From Acidobacteriota bacterium (lineage in GTDB: Bacteria > Actinomycetota > Acidimicrobiia > Acidimicrobiales > Palsa-688): a stretch of 64,000 bases of DNA. Positions 35,551 through 44,362 of the stretch are shown in pieces. The translations under genes and the position numbers were made by a program. The notes below the pieces were generated by a model. It worked only from the letters and a program-made list of their open reading frames with translations, did not search any database and had not been told where the DNA came from. How positions within the stretch are numbered: position 1 is the first letter of the stretch; each line of letters begins with the position of its first letter. The stretch is taken from the NCBI GenBank assembly GCA_028876385.1, contig JAGWSF010000028.1, positions 1-64,000 on the forward strand, in the 5' to 3' direction.

Positions 35551-35951
35551 TTCGCGGGGCCGGCGCCGATCTCGTAGTTAGGGTCGTGCTGGCCGCCCTC
35601 GCCGGCACCATCGCCGGGATCCACTTCGACCTGTGGAACAGTTACGGCTACCGCCACATCCCCCACATCGGGCCGCTGTTCCTCCTCGACGCCGCGGCGG
35701 GAGTGGCCCTGGCCGTGGCCTCGCTGGTCCTGCCGGCGAGATTGGTGGCCCTGGCCTGGCTGGGCGTGGCGGGCTACGGGGCGGCGACCCTGGCGGCGGT
35801 GCTGGTGAGCTTGGGGTCGGGTCTGCTGGGCTTCAGCGAGACGACATCAGCGCCGCTGCTCACCCCGGCCATTGCGGTGGAGGCCGCCGCGTTCGTGATC
35901 GGAGCGGGCGCCGCTCTGCGGGCGAGGCACCGGACCCGGCTGCGTTCCTAG
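35535..35951 (+). CDS. small polytopic membrane protein
   Basis: About 138 residues, with four hydrophobic helices (VVRVVLAALAGTIAGIHFDL, LLDAAAGVALAVASLVLPA, LAWLGVAGYGAATLAAVLV, AIAVEAAAFVIGAGAALRA). No family I recognise. It overlaps tatC: ATG 35535 lies inside the last codons of tatC, and the alternative GTG 35547 would overlap the TGA as GTGA, the style of many gene pairs here. Co-translation with TatC suggests a role in the same unit. It is convergent with the P-type ATPase, overlapping it by 4 nt. Confidence 0.6.
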   Translation: MPRQVIRGAGADLVVRVVLAALAGTIAGIHFDLWNSYGYRHIPHIGPLFLLDAAAGVALAVASLVLPARLVALAWLGVAGYGAATLAAVLVSLGSGLLGFSETTSAPLLTPAIAVEAAAFVIGAGAALRARHRTRLRS

Positions 35952-38299
35952 CGCACCGGGGCGGTCAGTTCCCCGCTGGCGTCCTCCCCGAGGGTGAGGT
36001 AGGCCTCCTCCTCCTGGGTGGTGTGCAGCTTCAGCACCGCGTACAGCCCGTAGAGCAACCTTCGTAGCTCTGCTGTGTCCTCGTCATCGGGTCCTTCGGG
36101 GCCGAACTCGTCGATTACCTGCCCGAGCCGGCGTATCTGGTGGGCGATCTCGACATGGGCCCGGCTCATCGGTCCGGTCGGGTCACGCCCACCGAGCAGC
36201 TTGTCCAAAGCCGGGTACAGCTCGTCCTGCTCGGCCGCCTCGTGGGGCTGGACCTCCTCCACGAGGAGACGGTGCAGTTCGGCGAGGGACGTGGCCGCCG
36301 TGGAGCGATCCATCTTCCCCAGGCGGTCGGCGGTGGCCCGTATCTGGTCGAGCGCGGCCCGTACCCTCACGTGCTCGACCTGGAACCGCCGGGCCAGCTC
36401 GGTGTCCTCGGCGCCGAGGCGGATCTCGGTGGACCGGGTCCGCAGCGCCCTCAGCGCGTTGGCTATCACCGCCACGTCGATGCCCTCCTGCAGCAGCGCG
36501 CCCCATACCGCCGGGAGCCAGCCGAGGGAGGCCACGGCCATGGCGATCAGCGACATGGCCATCCCGGCGACGACGCTCTGCAGGGCGATGCGGCGGCTGC
36601 GGTGGGCGATGGAGCGGGCCTCGCCGAGGCGGTCGAGCCGGTCCACGGTCAGCACCACGTCGGCGGTCTGGGAGGTGGCGGTGGCTCCCCGGGCCCCCAT
36701 GGCCACTCCCACGTCGGCGAGGGCGAGGGCCGGCGCGTCGTTGATGCCGTCACCGACCATGATCGTCGGGGCCCGCTCGTGCTCGAAGCGGACGGCGTCG
36801 AGCTTCTCCGCCGGTGTGCGGTCGGCCAGGACCTCGTCCACGCCGATCGCCGCGCCCACCGATTCGGCGACCTCGGCCCGATCGCCGGTGACCATGACTA
36901 TCCGGTCGATGCCGCTGCGGCGCAGAGCCCGCACCGTCCTCGCCGCGTCGGGGCGTATCACGTCGTCGAGCAGCAGTACCCCCGCGGGCTCCCCGTCGAC
37001 GGACACGAAGACGGTCATCGAGCCGTCGAGCCGGGCCCGTCGGCGAGCCGATCGGGCCCAGTGGGGATGGTCGGCGATCCCCACCCAGTCGGCCTTGCCG
37101 AGGGCCACCGTCCGGCTCCCCACCCGACCCCGGATGCCCTTACCTGGCACCTCCTCCACACCTGTCGGCAGGACCAGGGCGGACCCGCGGCTGGTGGCCG
37201 CCTGCACGACGGCGTGGGCCAGCACGTGGGGGGAGAGCTGGTCGAGCGACGCGGCCAGAGTGAGTATGTCCTCGGCGGGTATGTGACCGGCCGAGACCAC
37301 GTCGGCCACGGTGGGACGCCCTGTGGTCAGGGTCCCGGTCTTGTCCACGAGGAGGGTGGTACAGGTGGCCAGACGTTCGAGCACCGCCCCTCCTTTGGTC
37401 ACCACCCCCCGGCGAGCTGAACGCGACAGGCCCGACACCCACGCCACGGGTGCGGCGAGGATGAGCGGACAGGGGGTGGCCACCACGAGGACGGCCACCG
37501 CCCTCGCCGGGCCGGCGGCGGCCCACGACAGTCCCGCCGCGGCGAGAGTCAGGGCCAGGAACCACAAGGCGTAGCGGTCGGCCAGGCGCACGAAGGGAGG
37601 CCGGGACGTCTCCGCTTCCGACACCAAGCGGACGACACCGGCGTAGGTGCTCTCGGCCGCGGGTGCGGTGATGCGCACATCGAAGGGGGAGCCGGCGTTG
37701 ATCCCGCCGCTCCGCACGGGTTCACCCGACCGGCGCTCGACGGGCAGGGCCTCTCCGGTCAGGGCCGCCTCGTCGAGGACGGCGTCGCTCAGAAGGTTGC
37801 CGTCGGAGGGCACCAGCTCGCCGGTGCCGACCATCACCTCGTCGCCCGGCACCAACCGGTCCACGCCGACGGTGACCAGCGTTGCCCCCTCGTAGCGGTG
37901 GGCGAAGTTGGGGGCCCGTTGCAGGAGGGCGTCGAGATCGCGGTGGGCCCGCCCCGCCGCCCAGGACTCGAGCGCCCGGCCGGTGGTCACCATCACGCCG
38001 ATCACGCCGGCGGCCAGCAGCTCGCCGACGGCCATGGCCCCGACCACCGCGAGGAGGGCGATCACGTCGATGCCGAGGCGCCCCTCCCACAGGCTCCTAC
38101 CGGTCATCCACAGCGAGTACGCCCCTCCCACCGCCCCGGCCGCCATCCACAGGCGGTCGCCGGCGAGGGGTGAAGCCCCGGTGGCGTGCAGCAGACCTCC
38201 CGCGGCCAGACACGACAGGGTGGTCGCGACCATCACCATCGGGGCCAGCCCGGCCAGACGGTTGGGCCCGGCCCTTGGGCCTCGGCTCGGCGCCGTCAC
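35948..38299 (-). CDS. P1B-5-like metal-transporting P-type ATPase with C-terminal hemerythrin domain
   Basis: About 783 residues. The ATPase motifs are clear: TGE actuator loop (ALTGEALP, about 180), TPCPL in a membrane helix (275-279), DKTGTLT (319), and GDGINDAPAL. There is no N-terminal metal-binding domain. The TPC motif is the signature of the P1B-5 subgroup (Ni/Fe transport; Sinorhizobium Nia), distinct from CPC or SPC. From about residue 640 a hemerythrin-like domain follows with His/Glu clusters VEHVRVRAAL, VQPHEAAEQDELYP, MSRAHVEIAHQI and LKLHTTQEEEAY. P1B-5 enzymes with this domain are known. The start GTG 38299 overlaps the upstream TGA (GTGA). Confidence 0.85.
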   Translation of the reverse strand: MTAPSRGPRAGPNRLAGLAPMVMVATTLSCLAAGGLLHATGASPLAGDRLWMAAGAVGGAYSLWMTGRSLWEGRLGIDVIALLAVVGAMAVGELLAAGVIGVMVTTGRALESWAAGRAHRDLDALLQRAPNFAHRYEGATLVTVGVDRLVPGDEVMVGTGELVPSDGNLLSDAVLDEAALTGEALPVERRSGEPVRSGGINAGSPFDVRITAPAAESTYAGVVRLVSEAETSRPPFVRLADRYALWFLALTLAAAGLSWAAAGPARAVAVLVVATPCPLILAAPVAWVSGLSRSARRGVVTKGGAVLERLATCTTLLVDKTGTLTTGRPTVADVVSAGHIPAEDILTLAASLDQLSPHVLAHAVVQAATSRGSALVLPTGVEEVPGKGIRGRVGSRTVALGKADWVGIADHPHWARSARRRARLDGSMTVFVSVDGEPAGVLLLDDVIRPDAARTVRALRRSGIDRIVMVTGDRAEVAESVGAAIGVDEVLADRTPAEKLDAVRFEHERAPTIMVGDGINDAPALALADVGVAMGARGATATSQTADVVLTVDRLDRLGEARSIAHRSRRIALQSVVAGMAMSLIAMAVASLGWLPAVWGALLQEGIDVAVIANALRALRTRSTEIRLGAEDTELARRFQVEHVRVRAALDQIRATADRLGKMDRSTAATSLAELHRLLVEEVQPHEAAEQDELYPALDKLLGGRDPTGPMSRAHVEIAHQIRRLGQVIDEFGPEGPDDEDTAELRRLLYGLYAVLKLHTTQEEEAYLTLGEDASGELTAPVR

Positions 38300-39270
38300 G
38301 GACCGGCCGTCAGGTGCAGGTCGACCTCGTTCTGGGGGGTGCCGTCCTTGGCCGACAGGTCGTAGACCCGGAGCGTGCTCGTCGAAGCCGCCGTGGCCGT
38401 GAACCGGTAGGTGGTGTCGAAAGTCCCCCACGTGCCCGTACCGGCCGTCGCCATGACCGGCTGATCCACGAGGACATGCCCCGACCCGTCTATCAGCTGG
38501 ACGTGGAACTGCGCCTCGTAGACGTTGGCCATCCCGCTCAGGTGCAGCGACCCGTGGAGCACGTCGCCGACGGCGGGGTTCTCGACCAGTATGGCCGGCA
38601 GCGCGCCGAGCACGTCGCTGCGGCCGAGATCCCGGGTCAGGTCGACGGCGCCGCTGGCGAAGGTCATGGGCGTCGCCCCGTTGATCTGGAAGTTGACCGT
38701 CTGCACCGTTGGGAACTGCGTCAGGGTGAACACCACCTGGGCGATCCGGTTCAGCTCGCTCGACGGGGTCCCCGCCGTGGCGAAAGCAGAGTTGAGGTTG
38801 ACCGTGGCGCGCCCGTCGCTGACCGACAGGCCGAGCAGGATCGACCCGCTGGGGACGGCACTGGTCAGTCCCTCGGCCCCTTCGGCGGCACTGGTGCCAC
38901 CGAGCAGCGCGCCGACGGCGGCTCTACCCACCGAAGTGGTGTAGGCGACGCTGCGGTGAGCGACGCCGAGGTAGCTGCCTCTGAGGAAGTACACCGCCAA
39001 GGATGTGGTGGCGGGCACCGGCTGCGTCGTGGACGTCGAGGAGGTGCTCGTGGGGCTCCCGGGAACCGATGAGTTGGGTGTGGTCGGTGAGGCGGGTGAG
39101 GTCGGTGAGGTGTGCGGAGCGGAGGTGGGAGAGCTGACCGGGGCTTTGGCGGAGCTGCACTGTGTCGCCACCCCGGAGAGGAGCAACGCGACGACGACAG
39201 CCACCAGTCTCATCGGCTGGCGCTTCGTGGCCCCCTCGCGGTGGTTGAGACCCGCAGTGCTCTGCTCCAT
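38296..39270 (-). CDS. GerMN/Gmad2-domain lipoprotein
   Basis: A 324-residue secreted protein. The N-terminus is MRLVAVVVALLLSGVATQCSS-like with a plausible lipobox, then a long Ser/Thr/Pro linker to about residue 75. The GerMN-like domain includes LAVYFLRGSYLGVAHRSV, AVPSGSILLGLSVSDGRATVNLNSAF and VFTLTQFPTVQTVNFQING; the C-terminal Ig-like Gmad2 domain includes VYEAQFHVQLIDG and FTATAASTSTLRVYDLSAKDG. Such proteins occur in spore formers and also in non-sporulating actinobacteria, where they are thought to be cell-surface factors. It is translationally coupled to the metal ATPase downstream. ATG 39270 or the second ATG at 39213 (MRL) can be the start. Confidence 0.8.
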   Translation of the reverse strand: MEQSTAGLNHREGATKRQPMRLVAVVVALLLSGVATQCSSAKAPVSSPTSAPHTSPTSPASPTTPNSSVPGSPTSTSSTSTTQPVPATTSLAVYFLRGSYLGVAHRSVAYTTSVGRAAVGALLGGTSAAEGAEGLTSAVPSGSILLGLSVSDGRATVNLNSAFATAGTPSSELNRIAQVVFTLTQFPTVQTVNFQINGATPMTFASGAVDLTRDLGRSDVLGALPAILVENPAVGDVLHGSLHLSGMANVYEAQFHVQLIDGSGHVLVDQPVMATAGTGTWGTFDTTYRFTATAASTSTLRVYDLSAKDGTPQNEVDLHLTAGP

Positions 39271-39991: not shown

Positions 39992-42568
39992 ATGTCAGCA
40001 AACGGCGGGACGATTCCCACCCCCGAAGCAGCGGGTGCCTCACCGGCGGGGCGGGCCGCGACCACGCCCACCCGGCGATACGACGGCATGAGCGGCTCCT
40101 ACCGGCCGCTGCAGGGCCTGCGGGTAGTCGACATGGCCGACGAGAAGGCCGAGCTGTGTGGGCGCCTGATGGCCGATCTCGGAGCTGACGTGGTCCGGGT
40201 GGAGCCTCCCGGCGGGGCCCGGTCACGGGCGTTGCCGCCCCACATCGGAGCGGACAGCCTCTACTTCGAGGTCCGCAACACCAACAAGCGCGGCGCGGTG
40301 ATCGACCTGGGGTCGGACGGGGGGCGCCGACAGATGACGGAGTGGTTGGGCCAGGCCGACATCTGGGTGGAGACGTCGAGGCCGGGGGAGCTGGCCGCCA
40401 TCGGGTTGGACCCCGCCGAGGTGGCCGAGCGGTTCCCGCACCTCGTGGTCGTATCCGTCACCGACTTCGGCCACACCGGCCCGTACCGGGACTACCTCGC
40501 CACCGACGCGGTGATGGAGGCCATGGCCTGGATGCTCTTCCGGGCCGGGGTGCCGGAACTGCCGCCGGTCCTGCCGCCGGGCGCCATCGCCTACGACATC
40601 GCCGGTGTGTCGGCCGGGTTCGCCGCCCTCACGGGCTACCTGGACCGGCTCACCACCGGCGTCGGTCAGTGGATCGACCTGAGCGTCATGCAGGCGGTGG
40701 CCCAGACCACCGACTGGGGGCTCACCAGCTACTCGGTGGTCAGCCGCCAGGGCCTCTACGGCGAGGTGCGCGACGGGGGAGGGAAGGTCTACCCCATCAT
40801 CCGCTGCCGTGACGGGTACGTGCGACCGGCCATGGTGACCCGTGGCGAGTGGCGGAAGATACGGGAGTGGATCACCGAGGCGGGCCTGGGTACCGGCATC
40901 ATCGACCAGGACTACTGGGACGAGACCGTCGCCCGCGTCGGCGCCTTCGACGAGTTGCTGCGACCGGTGCTCGACGAGTTCTTCGCCCTGGGCGACATGC
41001 AGGACCTGGCGGCCACCGGGCAGGCCCGGGGCATCCCGATCACCCCCATGCTGACCCCCGCCGACGCCCTGCGAGCCGACCAGTTCGAGTGGTTGGGGTC
41101 CTTCACGACCCTGACCACCTCCTCGGGGGTGGAGGGCCGGGCCGCCAGCGGGTTCATGGTGGTCGACGGCGAACGCATCGGCTACCGCCGCCCCGCCCCC
41201 CCCGCACCCGGTTCGGCGACCGCCCCGACCGCCCCGACCGCCCCGACTGCCTCGACTGCCCCGACTGCCTCGACCGCCGCGACCGGAGCGTCGTGGTCCG
41301 AGCCGCCCGTAGCGGCCCCCTCCGGGGGAGGGGAGCCGGGGCGTCCCTACCGGGGCCTGCGGGTCCTCGAGTTCGGGGTGGCCGGCGCCGTGCCCGAGAT
41401 CGGCCGTCTGCTGGCCGAGTACGGAGCCGACGTGATCCGGGTGGAGAGCCCCAAGCGGATCGACATCTTCCGCCAGCTGGGGGGTCCCGGAGGGATGGGG
41501 AGCGTCTTCGCCTCCTCCAACCGGTCCACGAGGAGCATCGGGGTGGACTTCACCGATCCCCGGGGCGCGGGCATAGTCAGGGAGCTGGTCGGGTGGGCGG
41601 ACGTGGTCATCGAGAACCTGCCGCCGGGCACCCTGGAGAAGTTCGGACTGGGCGTCGACCAACTGCGCCGCATCGCACCCGGGCTCCTGATCGTCTCCAG
41701 CCAGACGATGGGCCGGTCCGGCCCGTGGTCGCACTGGAAGGGGTACGGGTCCAACACCCAGCTGCCGGGCGGGATGAGCTGGCTGTGGAGTCTCCCCGAC
41801 GTCGACGAGCCGGTCCCTCAGAACGTCGCCTTCCCGGATCATCTGGTGGGCCGCCTGGGGGCTTTCGTGACCGCCGCCGACCTGGTCGGCCGCCGCCACG
41901 GCCGCCGCCCCGGCGCTGAGGGGGGAGCCCACGTGGAGATCGTGCAAGCCGAGATGGCCCTCAACCTCCTGAGCGATCTGTACTTCAAGGAGTCGGTCGA
42001 CCCCGGCTCGGTGCGGCCCCTCGGTAACCGCTCGGAGCGGGGTGCCCCCTGGGGGGTCTACCCCTGCGCCGGGGAGCAGAGGTGGTGCGTCATCACCTGC
42101 CGTGACGACGCCGACTGGCAGCGGCTGCGCCAGGCCCTGGGCCACCCACCATGGGCTCTGGACCCCCGCCTCGACACGGTGGAGGGACGCAGGGACCATC
42201 ACGACCTCCTCGACGAGGGCATCGCAGCCTGGACCCGTCAGCGCCCCGACCGCGAGGTGATGTCGGTCCTCCAGGCCAACCTGGTGCCCGCCGGGATGAT
42301 GATGTACATGAGCGACCAGCCCGACGACCCCCACCTCGACGAACGCGGCTACATCCTGCACGTGGACCAGCCCGGTATCGGACCCGTGCTGATGGAGGGA
42401 CCGGCGTTCGCCGCCACCCGGCTGCCACCTCCGATCACCGAACCGGCACCGCTACTAGGCCAGCACACCCGCGAGATCGCCGCCTCGGTGCTCGGCTACC
42501 CGCCGGAGCGCATAGACGAGCTCGTCGACCTCGAACTGCTCATCGAGGCCCTCCCGGAGCCGGCCTGA
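39992..42568 (+). CDS. tandem-fused family III CoA-transferase (CaiB/BaiF-like)
   Basis: An 858-residue protein of two CaiB-type domains. Domain 1 (about residues 38-400) has LRVVDMADEKAELCGRLMADLGADVVRVEPP and the acyl-Asp site GPYRDYLATDAVMEA with Asp172. A low-complexity linker (about 405-450) follows. Domain 2 (about 450-850) begins LRVLEFGVAGAVPEIGRLLAEYGADVIRVE and at the equivalent site reads KGYGSNTQ with Gly586 where the catalytic Asp is expected. Family III enzymes move CoA between carboxylates through a covalent Asp intermediate. The fused architecture would mimic the interlocked dimer in one chain with a single catalytic site. ATG 40088 is an alternative start. Confidence 0.85.
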   Translation: MSANGGTIPTPEAAGASPAGRAATTPTRRYDGMSGSYRPLQGLRVVDMADEKAELCGRLMADLGADVVRVEPPGGARSRALPPHIGADSLYFEVRNTNKRGAVIDLGSDGGRRQMTEWLGQADIWVETSRPGELAAIGLDPAEVAERFPHLVVVSVTDFGHTGPYRDYLATDAVMEAMAWMLFRAGVPELPPVLPPGAIAYDIAGVSAGFAALTGYLDRLTTGVGQWIDLSVMQAVAQTTDWGLTSYSVVSRQGLYGEVRDGGGKVYPIIRCRDGYVRPAMVTRGEWRKIREWITEAGLGTGIIDQDYWDETVARVGAFDELLRPVLDEFFALGDMQDLAATGQARGIPITPMLTPADALRADQFEWLGSFTTLTTSSGVEGRAASGFMVVDGERIGYRRPAPPAPGSATAPTAPTAPTASTAPTASTAATGASWSEPPVAAPSGGGEPGRPYRGLRVLEFGVAGAVPEIGRLLAEYGADVIRVESPKRIDIFRQLGGPGGMGSVFASSNRSTRSIGVDFTDPRGAGIVRELVGWADVVIENLPPGTLEKFGLGVDQLRRIAPGLLIVSSQTMGRSGPWSHWKGYGSNTQLPGGMSWLWSLPDVDEPVPQNVAFPDHLVGRLGAFVTAADLVGRRHGRRPGAEGGAHVEIVQAEMALNLLSDLYFKESVDPGSVRPLGNRSERGAPWGVYPCAGEQRWCVITCRDDADWQRLRQALGHPPWALDPRLDTVEGRRDHHDLLDEGIAAWTRQRPDREVMSVLQANLVPAGMMMYMSDQPDDPHLDERGYILHVDQPGIGPVLMEGPAFAATRLPPPITEPAPLLGQHTREIAASVLGYPPERIDELVDLELLIEALPEPA
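41218..41280 (+). repeat. seven 9-bp repeats encoding the inter-domain linker
   Basis: Seven tandem units of the type GACCGCCCC/GACTGCCTC, read in the gene as alternating Ala-Pro-Thr and Ala-Ser-Thr triplets between the two CoA-transferase domains. The pattern suggests length change by slippage, and the encoded segment should be flexible and disordered. Confidence 0.85.
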
Positions 42569-42737: not shown

Positions 42738-43934
42738 GTGCCTCTGAGCGCCTGCGTGGCCGGTGTCGCCCAGCATCGGGCCCAGCGCCACTTTCGCGGC
42801 ACCCCCCTCTTCTCCATCGAGCAGTGGGCCAATCTGGCAGCCGAGGCTCTGAGCGACGCCGGGATCGAACCCGGCGAGGTCGACGGTATCTGCTGCGGCG
42901 GGGACATCATCGAGGCGTCGCGGTTCGTGCCGGCGACCATCGCCGAGTACTGCGGGTGGTCGGTGAACCTCGCCGAACGGGTGGACCTCGGAGGGGCGTC
43001 GGCGGTGGGGGCGGTCTGGAGGGCGGCCACAGCCATAGACGCCGGCCTGTGCGACGTGGTGGTCTGCGGTTTCGTCTCCGAGCCCAGGCCGCCCGATCCC
43101 CACCCCGGCCCGCCCGATCCCGGCTACGTCTACGGCGCCTCGAGCAACGAGTGGGGTTCACCGCAGGCCGAGTTCGACATCCCCTACGGCAACCTCGGGC
43201 AGAACTGCGGCTACGCCATGTACGCCCGGCGCTACCACGACCTCCACGGGTGGGACGAGACCAGCCGGGTCAAGATCGTCGTCGACCAGCGGGCCAGCGC
43301 CGCGGTCAACCCCGACGCCGTGTTCCATGGCGCCCCGGTCACCGCCGACGAGGTCCTCGCGTCGCCGGTGATCGCCACCCCGCTGCACATGTTCGAGATA
43401 GTCATGCCCGTGTCGGGGGCGGCCGCGGTGGTCGTCACCTCCCAGAAGCGGGCCCGCTCGGGGCGCCACCGCCCGGTGAGGGTCGCCGGCTTCGGGGAGC
43501 ACATCACCCACAAGACCCCGACCTACGCCCCCGACCTGCTCACCACGCCCGTCGCCGCCGCCGCCCAGAAGGCTTTCTCGATGGCCGGCATCACCCCCGC
43601 CGACGTGGACATGGTGCAGATCTACGACTGCTACTCGATCACGGTCCTGCTCACCATCGAGAACTCCGGTTTCTGCGGGCCCGGGCAGGGGCTGGCGTTC
43701 GTGCACGACCACGACCTGTCCTACCGAGGGGACTTCCCGTGCAACACCCACGGTGGCCAACTGGGCTTCGGTCAGGCCGGCCTGGCCGGCGGCATGTCCC
43801 ATGTGGTCGAGGCGGTGGCTCAGATCCAAGGACGCGCCGGTGAGCGTCAACTGGCCCGCCACGACCGCGCCTACGTCTCGGGCACCGGCGGGGTCATGAG
43901 CGAGCAGTCGGCGCTGGTGCTGGTCGGGCTGTGA
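42738..43934 (+). CDS. thiolase-fold protein, Ltp2/SCPx-like, lacking thiolase active-site residues
   Basis: A 398-residue thiolase-superfamily protein. The usual nucleophile block reads VDLGGASAVGAVWRAATAI, with no Cys; the usual GHP block reads NTHGGQLGFGQAGLAGG, with no GHP His; and the C-terminal CxG block reads SGTGGVMSEQ, again with no Cys. Such proteins, paired with DUF35, include Ltp2-type aldolases of steroid side-chain degradation. The MVQIYDCYSI segment keeps the family Tyr. The gene starts at GTG 42738 and overlaps the DUF35 gene by GTGA. It may cleave or condense acyl-CoA-bound substrates. Confidence 0.78.
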   Translation: MPLSACVAGVAQHRAQRHFRGTPLFSIEQWANLAAEALSDAGIEPGEVDGICCGGDIIEASRFVPATIAEYCGWSVNLAERVDLGGASAVGAVWRAATAIDAGLCDVVVCGFVSEPRPPDPHPGPPDPGYVYGASSNEWGSPQAEFDIPYGNLGQNCGYAMYARRYHDLHGWDETSRVKIVVDQRASAAVNPDAVFHGAPVTADEVLASPVIATPLHMFEIVMPVSGAAAVVVTSQKRARSGRHRPVRVAGFGEHITHKTPTYAPDLLTTPVAAAAQKAFSMAGITPADVDMVQIYDCYSITVLLTIENSGFCGPGQGLAFVHDHDLSYRGDFPCNTHGGQLGFGQAGLAGGMSHVVEAVAQIQGRAGERQLARHDRAYVSGTGGVMSEQSALVLVGL

Positions 43935-44362
43935 CACACGTGCCTGCCGCCGGATCGGAGCCCCCGGCCCGGCCGCTTCCCCGACCCACTCCCACCTCGG
44001 CGCCGTACTGGGAGGGACTGGCGGGGGGGCAGTTGCTGCTCCAGCACTGCCGGACCTGCGCCGCCTGGATCCACTATCCCCGGGTCCGCTGCCCGGCGTG
44101 TTTCGGCACCGACCTGGCCTGGGAGGCCGTTGAGGCCGCCGGGGTGCTCTACACCTTCACCGTTGCCGTCCGCCCCACCGCTCCCATGTTCGCCGGGTCC
44201 GTGCCCCAGGTGATCGGGGTGGTCGAACTGCCCGTCGGAGTGCGGATCACCACGACCATCGAGACCGACGCCCCCGACTTGCTGCGGGTGGGGACGGCGG
44301 TGAGAGGGGTGTTCGACACCTCGGAGGGGGTCGCCCTCCTGCGTTTCGCCCCCGACCGCTGA
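43931..44362 (+). CDS. DUF35 zinc-ribbon OB-fold protein, thiolase partner
   Basis: A 143-residue protein with an N-terminal zinc ribbon (LLQHCRTCAAWIHYPRVRCPACFG; two CxxC pairs) and a C-terminal OB-fold (VLYTFTVAVRPTAPMF). DUF35 proteins act as subunits of thiolase-like enzymes (ChsH2/Ltp2, HMG-CoA-type synthases). It is coupled to the thiolase-fold gene by GTGA, which supports a two-subunit enzyme. The upstream CoA-transferase could load the substrate onto CoA. Confidence 0.88.
   Translation: MTHVPAAGSEPPARPLPRPTPTSAPYWEGLAGGQLLLQHCRTCAAWIHYPRVRCPACFGTDLAWEAVEAAGVLYTFTVAVRPTAPMFAGSVPQVIGVVELPVGVRITTTIETDAPDLLRVGTAVRGVFDTSEGVALLRFAPDR

Follow-up and report, generated by a model that had tools for sequence, protein, structure and literature searches.

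A single-chain, two-domain family III CoA-transferase from an acidimicrobial genome with its predicted nucleophile in the second domain

Results

Gene, domains and linker

The window analysed here, a 64,000-nucleotide stretch of contig JAGWSF010000028.1, contains an uninterrupted ORF of 858 codons at positions 39992–42568 on the forward strand, to which all features below also belong unless stated otherwise. A profile search matched PF02515 twice and at full length in this ORF (E 4e-145; 483.9 bits, the cut-off being 23.3). It is a family III CoA-transferase with two complete CoA-transferase III domains, in line with the original prediction of two joined halves. Domain 1 (40097–41176) has chain A of the BbsEF structure 9fn0 among its best PDB matches (E 3e-28) and domain 2 (41330–42568) matched chain B (E 1.5e-54); we refer to them as the BbsE-like and BbsF-like halves. 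A same-genus genome (L001) carries the same fusion at about 94–95% identity, and substitutions between the two genes fall mostly at third codon positions. Codons 1–32 counted from the ATG at 39992 diverge by 22% in the DNA alignment with no codon-position bias; because these codons show no coding constraint against L001, the true start is probably the ATG at 40088 rather than that at 39992, giving a gene of 826 amino acids at 40088–42568. Residue numbers are nevertheless counted from the ATG at 39992 throughout. The dN/dS values were 0.29 and 0.11 for domains 1 and 2, respectively, and both halves are under purifying selection.

The interdomain linker (41177–41329) is of low complexity and rich in Ala, Pro, Thr and Ser, as originally described, with a dN/dS of 0.77; it is modelled as unstructured in its middle (pLDDT <50 at residues 415–432). 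The 9-bp units noted in the original prediction were also found, as a tandem repeat of 7.7 copies at 41217–41285, and 54 bp of this array are absent from L001. Judged from this pairwise comparison, the array is a species-level insertion, and it would represent a recent neutral expansion. Linker length and sequence also differ among the 26 fused ORFs collected in this study. Since unfused pairs of BbsE-like and BbsF-like genes are common, an artefact of assembly or a frameshift joining two genes might be suspected, but the presence of the same fusion in a separate same-genus genome, the third-position bias of the substitutions and the in-frame length difference of 54 bases, together with fused relatives in two further loci (L002 and L003) and a paralogue in the same genome, make such an artefact exceedingly improbable.

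Position of the nucleophile

CaiB has one catalytic aspartate, Asp169, and the same place is conserved in Frc and other members of the family (PMC9196870). The nucleophile of YfdE is Asp173, with mutational confirmation from the homologous enzyme UctC (PMC3720670). When the two halves were aligned with Frc, CaiB and YfdE of E. coli, Asp169 of both Frc and CaiB was aligned with Asp616 in domain 2 (41837–41839) and with Tyr201 in domain 1 (40592–40594). The conserved nucleophilic aspartate of family III is present in domain 2 and absent from domain 1.

The original prediction had placed the catalytic residue elsewhere, reading Asp172 in LATDAVMEA (40505–40507) as the active residue of domain 1 and Gly586 in KGYGSNTQ (41747–41749) as the mark of a dead domain 2. 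Both strings and the Asp/Gly pairing are real: Asp172, which opens a predicted helix spanning residues 172–178, does not vary among the aligned BbsE-like halves, and BbsF-type halves usually have Gly at this place. The column itself, however, lies 29 residues before the nucleophile column. Frc carries Glu at this place and CaiB carries Asn, and both are active enzymes whose nucleophile, Asp169, is located further downstream; the column therefore cannot be that of the nucleophile. BbsF likewise has Gly there, yet carries its CoA adduct on Asp178. A domain 1 active through Asp172 beside a domain 2 silenced by Gly586 is thus very hard to sustain, and the alignment to Frc and CaiB rules out Asp172 as the catalytic residue, so that its mutation would not probe the nucleophile. 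A different aspartate of domain 2, Asp616, takes the place of the one reported missing, which is the outcome that the original prediction had named as its own refutation, and the assignment of active and inactive halves is reversed.

The assignment in domain 1 carries a one-residue ambiguity. In a gapped phmmer alignment, Asp202 (40595–40597), which adjoins the nucleophile position, was paired with the SUGCT aspartate instead of Tyr201, and in the seven N halves of the acidimicrobial subclade, residue 201 varies (Y, H, S or E) while Asp202 is invariant (7/7). The low-confidence model of domain 1 alone also begins the relevant helix one residue later. Both sites could be active if domain 1 used Asp202, the next residue of the helix, as a nucleophile in addition to Asp616. 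Against this, the ungapped alignment on both sides of the site favours Tyr201, and placing Asp202 in the column requires one insertion and one deletion, the deletion falling inside a helix. Tyr201 and Asp616 moreover share the same helix position in the high-confidence full-length model, and outside the subclade a single Pseudonocardia sequence is the only one on the BbsE side with Asp at either place. The full-length model and the ungapped alignment both weaken the case for an aspartate in each half (Asp202 and Asp616); we retain it as an alternative but consider it unlikely. Its evolutionary form, in which a formerly inactive BbsE-like half of the acidimicrobial subclade gained Asp202 as a second nucleophile to give a single chain with two different active sites, appears quite unlikely.

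Structure models

The AlphaFold2 model of the full-length fused protein reached a pLDDT of 86.8 and a pTM of 0.91, and was confident even though MAFFT had placed unfused BbsE-like rows on the wrong half of its input alignment. In this model, helices begin at residues 199 and 614 (199–222 and 614–635), so that Tyr201 and Asp616 each occupy the third position. The same placement is known for MCT, in which Asp165 is third in a helix beginning at residue 163 (PMC9196870). Domain 2 was superimposed on 9fol chain D with a Z score of 26.8 and an rmsd of 1.7 Å over 397 residues, and Foldseek gave a TM score of 0.92 against 9fn0 chain D. The match between 9fn0 chain A (BbsE) and the full-length model had a TM score of 0.79, the matched half being assigned from its 26% identity.

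Domain 1 modelled alone with a corrected alignment gave a poor result (pLDDT 73; TM 0.50 and rmsd 19 Å against known single chains), probably due to the missing partner half. That domain 1 is modelled poorly by itself and is matched in the full-length model is weakly suggestive of a chain dependent on its partner half.

Phylogeny of the fused and unfused halves

We collected 135 domain sequences from 54 related loci and from the genome under study, including the 26 fused ORFs, with some genes represented in two loci. A 120-row tree was built by a quick method with SH-aLRT as its measure of support. The BbsE side (37 rows) and the BbsF side (40 rows) each received an SH-aLRT of 99, and domain 1 was grouped with BbsE and domain 2 with BbsF. 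Most N halves of fused ORFs likewise fell on the BbsE side and most C halves on the BbsF side. Aspartate occupies the nucleophile column in all 40 BbsF-side rows and in one of the 37 BbsE-side rows, the other residues on the BbsE side being Tyr (17), Glu, His and others. Pairwise distances on the two sides agree closely (r 0.956, 36 pairs), and none of 2000 permutations gave a correlation as high. The fused or separate state changed at least six times on the BbsE side and at least five times on the BbsF side; therefore, fusion or fission occurred several times.

Several individual loci deserve mention. The single BbsE-side aspartate belongs to a fused ORF of Pseudonocardia oroxyli (L015, 2577–5267), the only case in the set in which both halves have Asp in the nucleophile column. 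A second, separate group, consisting of L067 and L078 together with L061, an unfused pair, is split in the same way, its first half having Ser where Asp would be; the nucleophile thus seems to have been lost more than once across the tree. The genome under study (4.9 Mb) contains 39 CoA_transf_3 matches on several contigs, including about ten fused two-domain ORFs. Unfused pairs in this genome (L058 and L059, contig C8) show the opposite arrangement to the fused ORFs, with the BbsE-like gene following the BbsF-like one. The paralogue nearest in sequence, at about 50% identity, lies on contig C53 (within L107, 5584–13652); its first 4 bases overlap the end of a cytochrome P450 gene, and downstream of it come a half-length CoA-transferase covering only profile positions 4–205 and genes for a TetR regulator and for a luciferase-like monooxygenase. 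The order of P450, fused gene and half-length gene is the same in L111.

Neighbouring genes

Directly downstream of the fused gene lie a thiolase-fold gene (42738–43934; PF22691), probably a partner gene, and a gene for an OB-fold/zinc-ribbon (DUF35-type) protein (43931–44362; PF01796 and PF12172) that overlaps it by 4 bases. The thiolase-fold protein matched 9myr with 464 bits, and BbsB (7pxp) and 6ok1, an annotated lipid-transfer protein, also matched it. The stretch that usually holds the nucleophile (VDLGGASAVGAV) lacks a Cys, and the protein is possibly not a genuine thiolase. Elsewhere in the window, on the reverse strand, a P-type ATPase (35948–38431; E1-E2 ATPase and HAD domains) ends in a hemerythrin HHE domain that is part of the same polypeptide.

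Further genomes in the family (G012:C181, G002:C23, G025:C358 and G025:C474) also carry CoA-transferase and thiolase/OB genes no more than a few kb apart. Because they are neighbours in several genomes, a shared catabolic role is suggested, by analogy with known systems. BbsEF and BbsAB act together in toluene breakdown (PMC10818641). The neighbours of two 42%-identical relatives (L002 and L003) encode a peptidase M23, a sulfatase and a pyrophosphatase, and these gave no hint of a pathway.

Discussion

The gene product is very probably a single-chain, asymmetric family III CoA-transferase in which a BbsE-like half precedes a BbsF-like half, Asp616 is the nucleophile and the site of domain 1 probably does not turn over. 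The two halves would interlock as a pseudo-dimer. The domain 2 residue Asp616 would attack the donor acyl-CoA to give an acyl-aspartyl anhydride and then an aspartyl-CoA, from which CoA would be handed to the acceptor carboxylic acid. Domain 1 would complete the domain 2 active site and the interlocked ring, its own site, with Tyr201 in the nucleophile place, being probably without turnover. The substrate is probably a carboxylic acid activated for a beta-oxidation-like breakdown by the neighbouring thiolase/OB-fold pair. The general idea of a pseudo-dimer in which one of the two sites is catalytic and the other is not, put forward in the original prediction, agrees with the tree, the BbsE/BbsF comparison and the AlphaFold2 model; the choice of half does not.

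This analysis sets right a misassigned active site and gives an acidimicrobial protein that lacked annotation a place in a known class. More broadly, an asymmetric CoA-transferase pair has, on this tree, gone from fused to separate or back at least five or six times, with the aspartate kept in the BbsF-like member every time. The family thus offers a natural set for studying why enzymes retain a non-catalytic partner.

Comparison with known CoA-transferases

The closest parallel is BbsEF, the succinyl-CoA:(R)-benzylsuccinate CoA-transferase (PDB 9fn0 and 9fol), which, like the fused protein, consists of two homologous halves with an Asp in one (Asp178 of BbsF) and a Tyr in the other. The title of PDB 9fol describes a 'D178-CoA adduct' of benzylsuccinate CoA-transferase BbsEF, and Asp616 is aligned with Asp178 of BbsF by the residue count from the alignments and this title. 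In BbsE, residue 178 by its own numbering is Ala, and the place aligned with the nucleophile is occupied by Tyr171. With the CoA adduct on the Asp of BbsF and a Tyr in BbsE, the active and inactive halves of BbsEF therefore correspond to domains 2 and 1, respectively. BbsEF differs in being built from two separate subunits, and identity to it is only about 26–33%. The fused protein thus appears to work like BbsEF but is not BbsEF; the likeness is one of sequence and key residues and does not imply benzylsuccinate as the substrate.

The homodimeric family III enzymes Frc, CaiB, YfdE and SUGCT have the fold and nucleophile motif in common with the fused protein, which would also share their mechanism, whereas their subunits are identical, with one domain per chain and an Asp in each. 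Among two-domain type III enzymes, PtmU4 has tandem CoA-transferase domains, a poorly conserved linker and an essential Asp in the C-terminal domain, all of which are matched here, the last by the predicted nucleophile Asp616. A thioacid cassette with a PtmA3-like acyl-CoA synthetase is a further trait of the PtmU4 kind; in the window, annotated in part, the genes next to the fused gene encode the thiolase-fold and OB-fold proteins. Changing this residue of PtmU4, Asp430, lowered activity 125–400 fold (PMC6006322). PtmU4 serves to form thiocarboxylic acids, DddD acts as a DMSP CoA-transferase/lyase, and the fused protein is likened to both by architecture rather than by sequence relationship. 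Overall, the fused gene is a further member of the known two-domain CoA-transferase class, ordinary once its polarity is corrected.
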